Assembly (NCBI GenBank): GCA_004298155.1
Contig: SCRD01000008.1
Coordinates: forward strand, 248,001-312,000
Reading direction: 5' to 3'
Source: Acidobacteriota bacterium
GTDB taxonomy: Bacteria; Acidobacteriota; Terriglobia; UBA7540
DNA length: 64,000 nt
Shown: piece after piece, positions 30,371 to 36,693 of the stretch
Layout: every line of letters starts with the position of its first letter
Numbering within the stretch: position 1 is the first letter of the stretch
Program-made: the position numbers and the translations under genes
The notes under the pieces: model-generated
The model's database searches: none
What the model was told of the DNA's origin: nothing
Seen by the model: only the letters and a program-made list of their open reading frames with translations

Positions 30371-30598
30371 ATGAAATCAGGGAAGCAACGGCTTAGCGGC
30401 GAGAACGGAGAGGCCAGCCCATCATTGCTGGGCGGACTGGTCGAAGCGGCACTTGAAATCGCGCGTCGAAGGCGCGAAACTTTAGGACGTCTTCGCAAGG
30501 CCCTTGATGCCGGCAACGATAGAGAAGCTCTGGACCTGGCAAGAGAGCTCTGTGGCCTAAATGAAAAAAGTGATCGAACTGATTCGCGTGTCAACTGA
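30371..30598 (+). CDS. Small helical protein upstream of the recombinase
   Basis: A 75-residue, basic, probably coiled protein (SLLGGLVEAALEIARRRRETLGRLRKALDAGN). It overlaps the recombinase start by 38 bases, which suggests translational coupling. A small accessory or regulatory partner of the recombinase is possible. The ribosome-binding site is weak and no family is recognised, so it could also be non-coding. Confidence 0.45.
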   Translation: MKSGKQRLSGENGEASPSLLGGLVEAALEIARRRRETLGRLRKALDAGNDREALDLARELCGLNEKSDRTDSRVN

Positions 30599-32147
30599 GG
30601 GGCAGGCCGCCGAGGATCGGGCGGGAATACCGGCCCAACGTGCGGCAAACCGGCGCACCGCTGCCCAATATGACCTTGTAATCGTCAAGACAATAGAGAT
30701 CACTGACGTTTCGGGCACGGCCGTACTCCACTCGCGTGGAATGCACGAGTTACTTCGACTCATTGAGTCGCCGGACGTGCATGGAGTGGTCGCGAAGGAA
30801 TTCAGCCGCCTCATGCGTCCTGAAAACTTTGCCGACTACGCCCTTCTTCAGCAATTTATCGATACCAGAACAGTACTTTACTTGCCCGACGGACCTCTCG
30901 ATTTTGAATCCGAAAGCGGGAAACTGCTGGCGGGTATTCGCGCCTTAATTGCGGGGCAGGAGCGGCGAGAAATGCTGCGACGGGTGCACGACGCGAAGGA
31001 GACCATGCGAAGGGCTGGCAAGAATGCAGGAGGCGACTCAGTTCTGCCTTATGGCATCGGCTATTCGAAAGAGCACGGTTGGTACTATACGCCGGAGATC
31101 GAAAAAGTAAAACGCGCATTTCAACTCTTCCTGAATGGCGAAACTTGCTACGAAACGATTTCACGCGAGCTCAACATCCCAAGAACATCGGTACGCTTCA
31201 TATTGGGAAACCCAATTTACACGGGATGGAGAGTGTACGACGAATGCAGAGATCCATCACCGGAAGCTTACGTTTCCAGGCCCGATGGTCGGCAAGGTTA
31301 TCGGAGGAAAATGATGCGCGCTACCGATGAAGTCGTTCGCGTTCGGGTTTTAGAGCCGATCATAAGCGATAGGAAATTTGCTCACGTGCAGGAACTTATC
31401 GAAGTAAAACGCGTAAGGCACTGGCGAGCACGAGCAGAAGCACCCAACCGTTACACGTATAACGGCTTCCTTACATGCGGTGACTGTGGTGAACTGATTT
31501 ACACCCACACGGGGAAATATGAATTCTATGTGTGCAAATCGCGCCATCCCCGTGAGCGGCGCAGGCGCGCCATTCGTGGTTTGATGCCCTGCAATAACAG
31601 ATACATGCTGCGGAAGAAACTTGAGCCGAAAATCGACCACGTCTTTATGCGCATAGTTGGCGGTAGAGAATTTCTTGAACGAGTCGCGCGCACTTATGAT
31701 GAAAGTCGACCGAGTAGGGGTACTTTTGTTGACCGGACCACGGCAGTCAACCAAATTCGGGCACTCCGACAAAAGCGGGAGCGCATTCTGGATAGCTTTT
31801 TCGACGGGACTATCAACAAACGGGAGCGAGATTTGCGTGTCGGGCTTGTCGACAAGGAAATCGCGGCCTATGAGCATCTTCTTTCGGACTCACCAGGCGA
31901 ACAGGAACGTCCGAAAGTGCTGGACGTTGAGTCGGTGCTCGCTGTCTTGGAGCCGTTTGCCCAGTGGACATTCTTGGATCGCACCGCCAAGCGAAAACTA
32001 CTCGGGTTGTTATGTCCGAACATCAGTGTAGATAAATACGAAATCAAGAACTTAGAGCTCAACATGGTGTCAAAGGAGAAAGATCGTTACAAGGGCAGCC
32101 ATCCGAGGACGGTTCGGTCACCATTTCACGCGCGGCTATGTCGCTGA
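30561..32147 (+). CDS. Large serine recombinase (site-specific integrase)
   Basis: A 528-residue large serine recombinase. The resolvase catalytic domain is at residues about 1-150: IRVSTEGQA with the catalytic serine, and EFSRLMRP. The recombinase domain follows (about 160-260, [26 protein letters not shown]...NPIYTGW), then a zinc-ribbon (CGDCG...CKSRHP...CNN) and a C-terminal coiled segment. Such enzymes integrate and excise genomic islands at attP/attB sites. The last 18 or so codons lie inside sequence that in another frame encodes comM, so the coding sequence ends within the attachment site. It is the best candidate for having inserted the island. Confidence 0.92.
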
Positions 32148-32668
32148 CGTTTCCGTCGCGCTTTATGTTGGCCGCGGCCATGAATCCCTGCCCGTGCGGA
32201 TTTTTCAATGACCCCTCGCGCGATTGCTCCTGCACACCGCCCATGATCCAACGCTATGTCTCAAAGATTTCAGGCCCGCTGCTCGACCGCATCGACATCC
32301 ACATTGACATGCCGGCGGTGAAGTACAGCGAACTGCGGCAGAGTTCGGGCGGCGAAAACTCGCAGGAGATTCGCGAACGCGTCGTCCGCGCCCGCGAGCG
32401 GCAGTTGCAGCGGTTCGAAGGCGAGAAGATTTACTGCAACGCGCAAATGAGCCCAAGACAGATCAGGAAATACTGCAACGTCTCGGCGGATTGTGACCGC
32501 TTACTCGAAAGCGCAATGACTCGCCTGGGGCTTTCCGCTCGCGCGCACGACCGTATCCTGAAAGTCTCTCGCACCATCGCGGACCTCGACAGCGCTGAAG
32601 CCATCGGTTCCACGCATATATCGGAGGCCATCCAATACCGCTCGCTCGACCGCAATTACTGGGCGTGA
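32093..32668 (+). pseudogene. comM: comM (yifB), C-terminal fragment left by island insertion
   Basis: The frame encodes [14 protein letters not shown], then [18 protein letters not shown] and [16 protein letters not shown], all typical of the C-terminal third of the Mg-chelatase-like AAA+ ATPase ComM/YifB, which is about 500 residues long. Residues before the QPLEDG-type motif are absent: the sequence upstream belongs to the serine recombinase. ComM is a helicase promoting branch migration during natural transformation. The host copy is probably inactivated unless the island excises. Confidence 0.85.
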
Positions 32669-32793: not shown

Positions 32794-33075
32794 ATGGCGG
32801 AACACATGGTCAAATGCGTGAAATTCCAGAAAACATTGCCTGGCCTGGATGAGCCGCCGTGGCCGGGAGAGCTGGGCCAGCGCATTTATGACAACGTGTC
32901 ACTGGAAGCCTGGAAGCTCTGGCTTGAACACTTGAAAATGCTGATCAATGAATACCGCCTGGCCCCCGCCAACCCGGAATCGCAGGAGGTCATCGCGAAG
33001 CAGATGGAACAGTTTTTCTTTGGCGAAGGCGCTGCGCTGCCTCCTGGGTACGTTCCGCCGCAGAAAAAGGGCTGA
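32794..33075 (+). CDS. yggX: Fe(2+)-trafficking protein, YggX family
   Basis: A 93-residue protein of the usual family length. It carries the family core [41 protein letters not shown] and MLINEYRL. The cysteine near the N-terminus (KCVKF) is the conserved one. YggX protects iron-sulfur clusters from oxidative damage and handles labile iron in the cytoplasm. GGAGG precedes the start at a good distance and a TATAAT promoter lies upstream. It appears to be the first intact host gene right of the island. Confidence 0.9.
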
Positions 33076-33137: not shown

Positions 33138-34502
33138 TCATATCACCGGGAACACCGGACCCAGCACGAAGTGCAACCTCTGATGGGCCTGTCGAAGAGC
33201 GTGCTCGACGAATTCAGGTGACGGGCCGCGCGCGAAGATAAATCCAGGATAGCTGGTTCCCTCAGGAATGGGAACCAGCCTCTGGTTTGGCCGGGCCGTA
33301 ATGATGATGTCTTCCACGCCGGGCGTCTGGCGGGCATTTTCGACCCCCTCAACTTCCTGAAAAATACCCGCTCGGGGAATGGGAATCATCATTACCCCGG
33401 CGGCGGCTTCCTCCCGCCGGTATGTTTCAACGTTTTCCCCGATTGCCAGCCGGATAATCAATTCTTCCAGGGAAATATTTTCATCCTGCCCGGGAGTGCG
33501 GAACCGGAGCGCGCGAGAGCATAGCCCACCGATGGAGCGCGCAGCCACTTCAAGAATCCACGTCCCACGGCCGTTGATTCGCAGTTCAGCGTGCAAAGGG
33601 CCGTGTACGAGGCCCAGCGCCTGCGCCGCGCGCCGCAGCGTTTCCGTGGTCTCTGCCTGGGTTTCGAGCGCAAGCCGCGAAGGTGTCACATAGATGCTCT
33701 CCTCAAAATAGGGGCCAACCAATGGATCAGGCTTGTCGAACATGGCCAGAACTTTCAGCCGGCCGCGATCAACCACACCCTCGATGGCGATTTCTTCTCC
33801 TTCGATATATTCTTCTACCTGCAGATAGTTGCTGGTTTCCGCGTGCTTCACCTGAACTTCCGGACATCGCAGCAGTGATTGGATCTGTTTGAAAGCGTTT
33901 ATGAACTCCCGCGCGTTGTTGGCGCGAATCACTCCGCGGCTGGCGGAGAAAGCCAAAGGCTTGAGGACGCAGGGGAACCCAATCGGTGCAATTCCAGATT
34001 TCACAATGTCTTCGGGGTCGGCGTCGATGGGGAAACGGTTAAAACGCGGAACACTGAGCCCGCATTCCGCGAGCCGCTGGCGCGAACGGTATTTGTCGCG
34101 GCAAATGTCCGACGTTTCAGGAGGGTGGAACAGCAACCCGAGCGCATCCGCAGCTCTGGCGGCAGCGGGAGGCGTGGAGTCGCCCAGGGCAACGACGGCA
34201 TCAACCGGCTGGCGAGCTGCGTATTCGATAATCTTCGCGGCGGACTCCCCGGCATCTCCGAACTTCAACGCCAGAGCGCCGTCCTGCCAGGGATCGTCCA
34301 GCACGTGGCAGCGGTCGCTTCCGAAGGCGACGGCGAGGCCCAGCTTTTCGGCTGCCTGGACGAATGCACGGGTCTGGTAGCCCGTGGTCGTTGTCAACAG
34401 GAGCAACCGCCGCTTTTCGCCTTCCGGGGTTGATCGCCCGGCCTCGGGCGCGCGATTCTCCCTTACGCTATGCTGGTGTAAAGTTGCCCTTGTGCCCGTC
34501 AT
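33138..34502 (-). CDS. ATP-grasp ligase of the selenoprotein operon
   Basis: A 454-residue ATP-grasp protein. Residues about 30-140 form the pre-ATP-grasp domain (LLLLTTTTGYQTRAFVQAAEKLG). The nucleotide-binding part includes CRDKYRSRQRLAECGLSVPRF and FPCVLKPLAFSASRGV, and the metal site is LHAELRINGRGTWILEVAARSIGG near residues 310-335. Members ligate a carboxylate to an amine or thiol, as in amino-acid ligases. The start overlaps the end of the DUF169 gene by 35 bases, so it belongs to the radical-SAM/DUF169 operon. The substrate is unknown. Confidence 0.8.
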   Translation of the reverse strand: MTGTRATLHQHSVRENRAPEAGRSTPEGEKRRLLLLTTTTGYQTRAFVQAAEKLGLAVAFGSDRCHVLDDPWQDGALALKFGDAGESAAKIIEYAARQPVDAVVALGDSTPPAAARAADALGLLFHPPETSDICRDKYRSRQRLAECGLSVPRFNRFPIDADPEDIVKSGIAPIGFPCVLKPLAFSASRGVIRANNAREFINAFKQIQSLLRCPEVQVKHAETSNYLQVEEYIEGEEIAIEGVVDRGRLKVLAMFDKPDPLVGPYFEESIYVTPSRLALETQAETTETLRRAAQALGLVHGPLHAELRINGRGTWILEVAARSIGGLCSRALRFRTPGQDENISLEELIIRLAIGENVETYRREEAAAGVMMIPIPRAGIFQEVEGVENARQTPGVEDIIITARPNQRLVPIPEGTSYPGFIFARGPSPEFVEHALRQAHQRLHFVLGPVFPVI

Positions 34503-35184
34503 AGTACTCCTTCATTCCCACGTTCGCGTCCAGGATAACGGGCAGCCGCTCCTGGAGTTTGACGATCGCTCGCGCCGGAATTGAAATCAGCACTTCATCA
34601 TTCCCGATGCCTGCAAACGTCCGGGCGCCCATGCACGCCATGCTGACGGTCGTGTTGTTGTTTTTCATCGACATGGGGATCACCGCGCAGGCAGGCCGCC
34701 CGAGCACGCGGCTTTCATGTCCCGCTCCCCACGATGCAACGCCGCTGGCTTCTGAAATCATCATCGCCTGAAAAGGCGTGGCAATCAGCAGCACGACGTC
34801 GGGATGGATTTTGTCAAAATCCCTGAGTGGCCCGTAAACGACCACGCTGTGTTTCTTTTCCACTGTCGGAACGTTACTGGCCTCGGCAGCTTCAAGATAT
34901 GAAATCTTTCCCATCATGCCGATGAGTTCCATGGCCTCATCAGATACGGCCTGCGGGATAGGGAAGCCCTGGGTGATGGCGCCGATCGGGCAGTTGTAAT
35001 GGTCGGAAGCCGTGGCGTAGAACAGTTCGCGCTCGGCGGCCGTCCAGAAAGTGCACGCCGAAGGAACGGCCTTATCGTAATGCTTCACTCCGGCGGGCGC
35101 TTCGTCAAGAAAAGCAATTCCAACGGGTATGTGGCTCAATTTCAACTTCTCTGTGAGATTGTTTGAAAATTCAGCGTATGACAA
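34468..35184 (-). CDS. DUF169-family protein
   Basis: A 238-residue protein of the DUF169 family. Conserved cysteines are in VPSACTFW (near residue 43) and HYNCPIGAITQGF (near residue 64), the latter being the family landmark. ASWGAGHESRVLGRPACAVIPM and KLQERLP-type C-terminal segments also match. The family's function is not established; two or more conserved cysteines suggest metal, heme or thiol chemistry. It lies 81 bases downstream of the radical-SAM selenoprotein stop and overlaps the ATP-grasp gene. Confidence 0.82.
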   Translation of the reverse strand: MSYAEFSNNLTEKLKLSHIPVGIAFLDEAPAGVKHYDKAVPSACTFWTAAERELFYATASDHYNCPIGAITQGFPIPQAVSDEAMELIGMMGKISYLEAAEASNVPTVEKKHSVVVYGPLRDFDKIHPDVVLLIATPFQAMMISEASGVASWGAGHESRVLGRPACAVIPMSMKNNNTTVSMACMGARTFAGIGNDEVLISIPARAIVKLQERLPVILDANVGMKEYYDGHKGNFTPA

Positions 35185-35265: not shown

Positions 35266-36693
35266 TCAGACAAGTGCTTCATCGTGATTCATGGAGACCA
35301 ACTGGTCCCCGGTCGGCTCAGCTCAGCAATACCAGGGCTCGGTCAGATAAGGTATGGCAGCACGGTCCAGAAGATTCTCCGCCGTCAGAGCCGACGGCTT
35401 GATTCCGGCGGCCTCATAAGCCATCGCCGCAACACGTTCGAATATCTGCCTCCGCGTTGCCTTCTGCTTTCCGCCTTCGTGAACAACACTCTGCACCCTT
35501 GCGCACAAATCATCGACCTGCGGGTCAACATTGGACCAGGGATAAACCAGCGTCTCTTCGTCGAAGCGCCCCACCGCCTGCGCAATCTCCGGGAGTTCCA
35601 GCAGGTGCGAGCCCGAAGGGACCAGCAGGCGGATTCCCATCTGGATGGGCGCGACACAATCAACGAGCCCGGTTTGACGCAGGCCGGCAATAAAGCCGTA
35701 ATAGCTTTCTAGCGTTGTCCACGGAGTGAAGGCGACAAAAGTTGGTGATAGGGCCAGGCCGGCCTGCCGGCACAATTCCAGCACGCGGACAAAATCTTCG
35801 AAGGTATGCCCCTTGTCGAGCATGTGGAGAATCTGGTTGTCGAAAGATTCAACCGCGCTGGTCACAAAAGCGCATCCCGTTTCGCGCAAGGTTGGCAGGT
35901 GCTCGGAGTGCTTCAGCAGATGCTCTACTTTGATGGTAGCGTCGTACGTAATTTCAGGATGCTGGGCGTGCAACGCGGTAACGATCCGCATGGCGTGGCC
36001 GATGCCGTTGAAAAAATCAGGGTCGCCAAAGGTGATGTGCCGGGCTCCCATCTCCGCCTGCCGGCGGATGTCTTCGAGGACAACCTCCGGCTGGACGATG
36101 CGAAATACCCCGTTGTAAACCGGGACAATTGGGCAATGGCGGCAATGATGCTTGCATCCCCGGCTGGCTTCCGTATAACCTGCGATGCGGGTTTCGCCGT
36201 CGTCCCACATAAGTTTCGCATAACGGCTGAGCGGTGGCAGGGTTTGGCGTTCCGGGGTCAGAAAATCCTGCCGGGCCACAGAGACCGTGGGCGGTGGTTT
36301 CATGCCTGGCAGAATCTTCCCGCCTCGCAGTCGTTCGAGCGTTGCAACCAGGCCTTCTTCAAATTCGCCGCCCAGAATGGTTTGCGTGCCCAGCTTGCGC
36401 AGGAAAGCTTCATTCATGGGCGCATAGAGGCCGTAGCAGCAGAGGTGAGCATCGGGGTTCAATTCGCGAATCCTCGGAAGAATGCGTGCCGCCAGCCGGG
36501 TTGCCGTATGCATCGGCACATAAAGCGCGACCAAATCCGCTGACCTGATTGCTTCTTCGTTGAGAGGCTGGCATGAAAGGTCAATACACGTGACGTCCGA
36601 GCCAGCGCGCCGCAGCCACGCGGCGGGAGACGCCAGGCCAAAAGGCTGATGGCCGAGTTCGTAAGTGGAGATTAGAAGGCTCTTCAACAGCAT
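35266..36693 (-). CDS. Radical-SAM selenoprotein with CUAEP tail (UGA read as selenocysteine)
   Basis: A 475-residue protein when UGA at 35323-35325 is read as selenocysteine (residue 457). The N-terminal 120 residues look like a B12-binding-type Rossmann domain. The radical-SAM [4Fe-4S] motif is C180-x3-C184-x2-C187 in GCKHHCRHC, followed by FGDPDFFNG and AVESFD. A standard gene call would stop at WYC. Beyond the UGA the frame reads A-E-P, giving C-U-A-E-P, the tail known for a radical-SAM (seleno)protein family, and closes 18 codons later. A hairpin right after the UGA fits a bacterial SECIS. It is first in an operon with DUF169 and ATP-grasp genes. Confidence 0.85.
35293..35310 (-). promoter_or_regulatory. 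SECIS-like hairpin for selenocysteine insertion
   Basis: On the minus strand GGGGACC (35310-35304), loop AGUU, then GGUCUCC (35299-35293) form a 7-bp stem with one G-U pair. The apical GU lies 20 nt after the UGA codon, inside the window known for bacterial SECIS elements, whose loop normally shows GU. Confidence 0.7.

Follow-up and report, generated by a model that had tools for sequence, protein, structure and literature searches.

A probable selenoprotein of the CUAEP/CCAEP-tail radical SAM family from an Acidobacteriota bacterium and its kinship to ArsL

Organization of the locus

The window, which is the whole stretch of 64,000 nucleotides analyzed here, contains on its minus strand a gene for a predicted radical SAM selenoprotein (35266–36693). 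The reading frame starts with an ATG at 36693 and extends over 456 codons, the last of which encode TEPWYC, before it reaches a TGA at positions 35325–35323. The assignment of this UGA codon (35323–35325) to selenocysteine Sec457, immediately after Cys456, is based on the reading frame and on the tails of homologues. Beyond the UGA, the frame stays open for 18 codons, which encode the C-terminal extension AEPTGDQLVSMNHDEALV (35269–35322, minus strand), and closes with a second TGA at 35268–35266. With the UGA read as selenocysteine, the protein has 475 residues. The extension is absent if the UGA is taken as a stop.

The next gene downstream, also on the minus strand, encodes a DUF169 protein (34468–35184; PF02596, 107 bits). 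It is followed by a gene for an ATP-grasp ligase of the L-amino acid ligase type (33138–34502, minus strand), the product of which scores over the cut-offs of PF13535 and PF18603 (LAL_C2). A gene for a YggX-type Fe(2+)-trafficking protein (32794–33075, plus strand; PF04362, 123 bits) is convergent with the ATP-grasp gene. Scans for terminators gave results at the level of shuffled sequences, and those for promoters barely exceeded it. Farther along the window, a serine recombinase gene directly adjoins a YifB/ComM-type Mg-chelatase gene, of which the 3' part is present (30561–32147 and 32138–32668; profile positions 333–499 of 499). The recombinase possibly belongs to an integrated element that split the YifB/ComM-type gene.

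Family membership and conservation of the tail

The window protein matches the family of CUAEP/CCAEP-tail radical SAM (seleno)proteins, NF040546, with 645.8 bits over residues 6–465, whereas the cut-off is 500 bits; the score from the genome search is 639.1 bits. The initial annotation had assigned the C-U-A-E-P tail to a known group of radical SAM (seleno)proteins, and the NCBIfam entry NF040546 is that group. The tail pattern of the family is C-[CU]-A-E-P, and the window protein has C456-U457-A-E-P. The window gene shares with the family its full length, the tail, and the position of selenocysteine as the second residue of the pair, and there is no defining difference between them. It is a fresh member of an already named family. 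A literature search outside subscription journals found no paper naming "CUAEP" or "NF040546". The main text of a review of prokaryotic selenoproteins contains neither "NF040546" nor "AEP" (PMC13188914). Among passages of another source, a single radical SAM entry occurs, and it belongs to a different family, TIGR04167 (PMC9312934).

The 3' ends of homologous genes were compared in 140 loci (L057–L196, of which L196 is the window's own locus). Conservation of cysteine or selenocysteine followed by A-E-P had been proposed as a check of the selenocysteine reading, and the tail [CU][CU]-A-E-P occurs in 136 of the 140 loci. These 136 tails comprise 79 of the CC type, 55 CU, one UC, and one UU. The four other loci are L159 and L161, which have C-U-S-E-P, and L188 and L194, in which the tail is unreadable. 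The loci behind the counts are related and not independent. Likeness to the window was the criterion by which the named loci, the best 80 of 331, were picked; a few of them overlap the set from the phylum of the window (L117 is identical to L169 and L130 to L144). Among 396 genomes sampled from this phylum, 61 contain a protein that scores over the cut-off of NF040546.

Decoding of the UGA codon

Translation table 11 shortens the gene, giving a protein with WYC as its last residues. The frame WYC-UGA-AEP, described in the initial annotation as open for 18 codons to 35266–35268, matches the sequence base for base. By simple arithmetic, the chance of an open stretch of 18 codons is about 0.4; such a stretch is cheap by chance, and therefore the weight of the selenocysteine case rests on other facts. 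It had also been anticipated that ordinary gene calling truncates the protein. The public record of Thermomicrobium roseum (NC_011961.1) provides an example, because the coding sequence (L216:6932–8368) is named as CUAEP/CCAEP-tail, yet its selenocysteine codon, a UGA after ...WFC, is annotated as its stop. Truncation of such genes therefore does occur.

A bacterial SECIS-like hairpin of 7 base pairs (35293–35310, minus strand) was identified from its fold, register, and covariation. It has the sequence GGGGACC-AGUU-GGUCUCC with one G-U pair, and the 36 nucleotides starting with the UGA fold into this hairpin with an energy of −12.2 kcal/mol. The hairpin is the one that had been noticed from the sequence, starting 12 nucleotides past the UGA, and the GU-containing loop is the apical AGUU. 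This loop is one base shorter than that of most members of NF040546 (pairing sum of 43 versus 44).

After the removal of duplicates, short tails, and tails containing N, the hairpin was counted in 56 selenocysteine-encoding and 76 cysteine-encoding genes. A stem of at least 5 base pairs with a G in the first two bases of the loop is present in 54 of the 56 selenocysteine tails, as opposed to 17 of the 76 cysteine tails. In strict register, the hairpin occurs in 50 of 56 and 5 of 76 genes, respectively, whereas 0.8 and 0.5 are expected from shuffling. Among shuffled tails of selenocysteine genes, 1.5% have a hairpin of at least 5 base pairs in register with a loop G. Covariation was evaluated in a set of 57 selenocysteine tails. 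With the pairing sum fixed, 313 of 342 cells are paired, compared to 242 ± 5 when the letters of the 3' side are reshuffled, and both sides of the stem have changed 86 times across the eight pairs. The residues encoded by the stem tend to track the pairing: E-Q-x-A occurs in 26 tails, G-Q-x-D in 11, and D-Q-x-G, G-Q-x-A, and G-Q-x-G in four each, in addition to eight other patterns. The covariation of the stem is specific to selenocysteine genes.

The genome from which the window originates (G000) is represented by 29 contigs and is 97.6% complete. A search for selA, selB, selC, and selD had been suggested as a check, and all four are present. Profile searches detected selA with 585 bits, selB with 368 bits, and selD with 377 bits, and selC corresponds to a tRNA-Sec with the anticodon tca (68.4 bits). 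The SelD of this genome has its own in-frame UGA at AGUAAK, and the genome therefore contains a second selenocysteine gene. Among the genomes of the phylum sample, those with a selenocysteine-coded CUAEP gene have selA in 46 of 46 cases and those with a cysteine-coded one in 5 of 10 (Fisher p 7e-5). The 30 genomes behind the named loci contain selA in six of six selenocysteine-coded and 19 of 24 cysteine-coded cases.

It is very improbable that the UGA is a true stop; in that case WYC would be the end of the protein, and both the A-E-P codons and the hairpin beyond it would be products of chance or relics. Such termination is how table 11 reads the codon, and some cysteine genes retain relic-like hairpins without selenocysteine. 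Moreover, selA is also present in 13 of 20 genomes that lack a CUAEP gene over the cut-off, and selA on its own is therefore weak evidence. Nevertheless, A-E-P follows this position in nearly all of the homologous loci, the stem covaries specifically in selenocysteine genes, and none of the 46 selenocysteine-coded genomes of the phylum sample lacks selA. The selenocysteine machinery of the genome, together with the register of the hairpin in selenocysteine genes and the covariation of its stem, indicates that the window gene is very probably a genuine selenoprotein gene. Judged from these sequence data, the UGA at 35323–35325 is almost certainly decoded as selenocysteine by SelB and tRNA-Sec, guided by the downstream hairpin.

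Exchange of selenocysteine and cysteine

A quick maximum-likelihood tree of 133 of the 136 loci, calculated with the tail excluded, requires 14 changes between selenocysteine and cysteine, at least seven of which are forced by well supported branches. A hairpin in the SECIS register persists in five cysteine genes (L058, L059, L075, L083, and L091), each of which comes from a genome with selA. These hairpins are likely relics of a selenocysteine-encoding ancestor.

Two genes from Chloroflexi have selenocysteine at the first position of the pair. The tail of L110 (6004–7410) is the Sec-Sec sequence WYUUAEP, and that of L088 (6001–7416) is the Sec-Cys sequence WYUCAEP; both are single metagenome assemblies, and base errors are therefore possible. 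The two genes group as sisters in the tree, where the branch is moderately supported (SH-aLRT 84); each has a SECIS-like hairpin, and selA is present in both genomes. The sequences look as if selenocysteine had shifted from position two of the pair to position one via a double-selenocysteine stage. Two other assemblies, L090 and L111, are titled Betaproteobacteria and Bifidobacterium breve, and their genes fall inside clades of Acidobacteria. Perhaps these assemblies are mis-binned or mislabelled, or the genes were transferred.

Protein architecture

The predicted AlphaFold2 structure of the window protein has a pLDDT of 93.6. Its N-terminal part, approximately residues 1–125 (36319–36693, minus strand), is a predicted cobalamin-domain-like Rossmann fold. 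The match to PF02310 has 25.4 bits, which is under the cut-off of 32.1; in structure comparison, residues 1–126 match the cobalamin domains of methionine synthase with a Z-score of 12.7. The CX3CX2C motif formed by C180, C184, and C187 (36133–36156, minus strand; PF04055, 56.8 bits) is the predicted site of the [4Fe-4S] cluster.

The closest fold to the model is that of the radical SAM diol dehydratase AprD4 (Z-score of 27.3, rmsd of 3.7, 407 aligned residues). The window protein has the overall fold common to AprD4 and the cobalamin-domain radical SAM enzymes OxsB, TsrM, and MgmA; however, its identity to AprD4 is 19% and the tails differ. AprD4-type folds are not known to need cobalamin.

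An alignment of 73 sequences was composed of the window protein and 72 sequences selected from 110 representatives. Its invariant residues include the three cysteines of the CX3CX2C motif as well as E452, W454, C456, C457, A458, E459, and P460, of which the invariance of the five tail residues is partly built in, because loci were retained by their [CU][CU]AEP tail.

Relationship to ArsL

The next-best family of the window protein is ArsL (NF040542), the radical SAM protein in the biosynthesis of the arsenic antibiotic arsinothricin, with 286.2 bits over residues 6–410, which does not reach the cut-off of 450. ArsL is the nearest characterized family: it has the same N-terminal and radical SAM cores and a vicinal pair of cysteines at the C-terminus. 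ArsL is reported to move the 3-amino-3-carboxypropyl group from SAM onto As(III) (PMC8552651). The window protein differs from it in about 50 additional residues before the tail and in selenocysteine in place of cysteine. The RCCLKC tail of ArsL is absent from the window protein, in which the tail is WYCUAEP. A gap of about 48 residues precedes both tails, so that only the termini of the proteins force the ArsL tail to align with the CUAEP tail. A search of a plasmid collection with the same query retrieved one CUAEP gene, that of Thermomicrobium roseum, and 16 ArsL genes with the RCCLKC tail.

Four ArsL-type plasmid clusters were opened, and three of them, from Priestia, Alicyclobacillus, and Pantoea, contain an ATP-grasp gene; the Pseudomonas cluster has no annotated ATP-grasp gene within its 4-kb flanks. 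The best solved relative of the Alicyclobacillus enzyme is the L-amino acid ligase BL00235 (101 bits), which is also the best solved relative of the window ATP-grasp protein (155 bits, residues 48–446). The aligned parts of the window ATP-grasp protein and the three enzymes from ArsL clusters are 24–26% identical, which corresponds to kinship at the family level.

The arsenic genes that accompany ArsL are almost absent from the vicinity of CUAEP genes. Searches of the 136 CUAEP loci with queries from ArsL clusters gave two weak matches to ArsM (three queries), one locus with a weak match to ArsR, and no matches to ArsN, ArsQ, the arsenic transporter, or ArsI. The window's own locus has no arsenic-gene match. 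Four of the 136 loci, counting L114 itself, match an ArsR/SmtB-type metalloregulator taken from L114. Arsenic as the element handled by the CUAEP enzymes was rejected on the basis of this near absence. The window protein is not an ArsL, because its score is below the cut-off, its tail is different, and the arsenic context is missing; the best reading is that the enzyme is ArsL-like in its action.

Neighbouring genes across the family

A homologue of the ATP-grasp ligase was found near the radical SAM gene in 91 of the 136 loci, and in 70 of these the match begins within 300 bases after the radical SAM gene, in the same orientation. It was not found in the other 45 loci; 124 of the 136 loci extend more than 1.5 kb downstream. 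A YggX homologue accompanies the radical SAM gene in 57 loci, with three different arrangements; for NifU the number is 30. DUF169 occurs near the radical SAM gene in 9 of the 136 loci. Four cysteines of the DUF169 protein (C44, C65, C166, and C184) are invariant in eight sequences, that of the window included. None of the 996 chains compared with the model of this protein (pLDDT of 87.6) reached a Z-score of 5, and therefore no function was read from the fold.

Possible function of the Cys-Sec pair

The kinship to ArsL, the Cys-Cys(Sec) tails, and the ATP-grasp neighbors in both families suggest chemistry like that of ArsL and a dipeptide product. SAM would be cleaved at the [4Fe-4S] cluster, as in ArsL, and a carbon fragment derived from it, probably 3-amino-3-carboxypropyl, would be joined to a soft element. 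That element, or an equivalent thiol or selenol substrate, would be held or delivered by the pair at the C-terminus, Cys-Sec or Cys-Cys, which would serve as a clamp. The resulting amino acid, which would resemble methionine or glutamate, might then be coupled to a second amino acid by the ATP-grasp ligase, yielding a dipeptide. The DUF169 protein with its four invariant cysteines could be an accessory metal protein. We regard this explanation as a whole, a CUAEP/CCAEP-tail selenoprotein with ArsL-like transfer of a SAM fragment to a soft element followed by coupling by a ligase, as having about an even chance of being correct. The ArsL-like mode of action of the window enzyme, which is proposed by analogy, is tentative and falls somewhat short of even probability. 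The invariance of E452 and W454 beside the Cys-Sec pair in the 73 sequences was counted in its favor. By contrast, the YggX and NifU neighbors were counted against it, because they fit the upkeep of iron-sulfur clusters equally well.

Redox chemistry of the pair, which the initial annotation had considered probable, is the chief rival. A redox-active selenenylsulfide or dithiol would reduce an intermediate or donate hydrogen, while the enzyme performs ordinary 5'-deoxyadenosyl radical chemistry in making a small molecule derived from an amino acid. The repeated interchange of cysteine and selenocysteine in the tree resembles that in many redox selenoproteins, and the tails of L088 and L110 suggest that selenocysteine is possible at either or both positions. 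The dehydratase activity of AprD4 and the iron and iron-sulfur proteins among the neighbors also agree with it. However, the nearest sequence family forms a carbon-arsenic bond and is not one with a redox tail, and no thioredoxin was found in the subset of neighboring proteins that was scanned. We consider the redox role somewhat unlikely.

The tail of mammalian thioredoxin reductase is Gly-Cys-Sec-Gly, and the C-terminal tail of MerA is Cys-Cys. Both resemble the window protein in their C-terminal Cys-Cys or Cys-Sec pair; however, the proteins are unrelated and the likeness is one of resemblance. The handling of a soft metal or metalloid by the Cys-Sec pair appears at least as likely as redox chemistry.

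Possible links to mercury and organometals

Another alternative is that the enzyme acts on organomercury-type or other organometal compounds, in which it would make, move, or break a carbon-metal bond while its Cys-Sec tail acts as ligand of the metal. MerB-family genes are present in 7 of the 80 named loci (the best 80 of 331), and all nine MerB matches of those seven genomes lie inside CUAEP loci; a binomial was calculated on genomes selected once their MerB genes were already known, and it gives no fair probability. However, among six adjacent MerB-family proteins that were scanned, that of L101, which is part of a merBA operon, is the only one over the NCBIfam cut-offs for MerB. A fused HgcAB-like protein (L073:9098–10279) scores 332 bits, over the cut-off of 285. 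MerB or HgcAB-like genes occur in five of the eight DUF169-bearing loci, which have the layout of the window, versus 3 of 73 others; nevertheless, four of these five loci belong to Actinobacteria.

Canonical MerB and MerA are encoded on the CUAEP contig of the window genome. They are part of a mer island (L211 7031–14914; contig 8 of G000, approximately 51–59 kb) located about 225–230 kb from the CUAEP gene, which contains MerTP-like, MerA, MerB, MerC-like, and second MerA genes, with the MerTP- and MerC-like proteins scoring under their cut-offs. However, the window genome is the only one in the phylum sample in which MerB over the cut-off shares a contig with CUAEP, at the distance of about 230 kb, and the genomes with the sisters of the window gene (L057 and L065) have no MerB match. 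The link at the level of genomes is modest for MerB, found in 11 of 61 CUAEP genomes versus 16 of 335 others, and is not seen in the phylum for HgcAB-like proteins (2 of 61 versus 7 of 335; p 0.63). Taken with this evidence, action on organometals is distinctly unlikely.

The association with HgcAB-like proteins was rejected, since it is limited to the one locus L073 and unsupported in the phylum sample. The association with MerB is real in the 7 of 80 named loci, and in the phylum MerB was found nowhere beside CUAEP, where fragmented assemblies could hide cases; this candidate was also set aside.

Two observations concern these genes themselves. The HgcAB-like gene of L073 is located near a selenocysteine-type CUAEP gene, a DUF169 gene, a methyltransferase gene, and a gene for a second radical SAM protein. 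In the phylum sample, 14 of the 34 listed MerB-family matches carry exactly one in-frame TGA, and these may be selenoproteins (compare L202 and L204).

Implications

Since the table 11 reading shortens the gene, annotation would miss the conserved C-terminus of the enzyme. Broader and more doubtful is the idea that CUAEP proteins serve as selenoenzymes in a natural-product pathway, organometal(loid) or organoselenium, that is widespread. An ArsL-like radical step would form a carbon-element bond on an amino acid derived from SAM and gripped by a C-terminal Cys-Sec clamp, the L-amino acid ligase would convert it to a dipeptide, and selenocysteine would shift in evolution between the two positions of the clamp, giving the CU, UU, UC, and CC forms. 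The link to ArsL and the ligase, together with the Cys-Sec pair and the recurrent exchange of selenocysteine and cysteine, makes the chemistry of the CUAEP enzymes directly testable, and such tests would help to explain why selenium is retained in a radical SAM enzyme.
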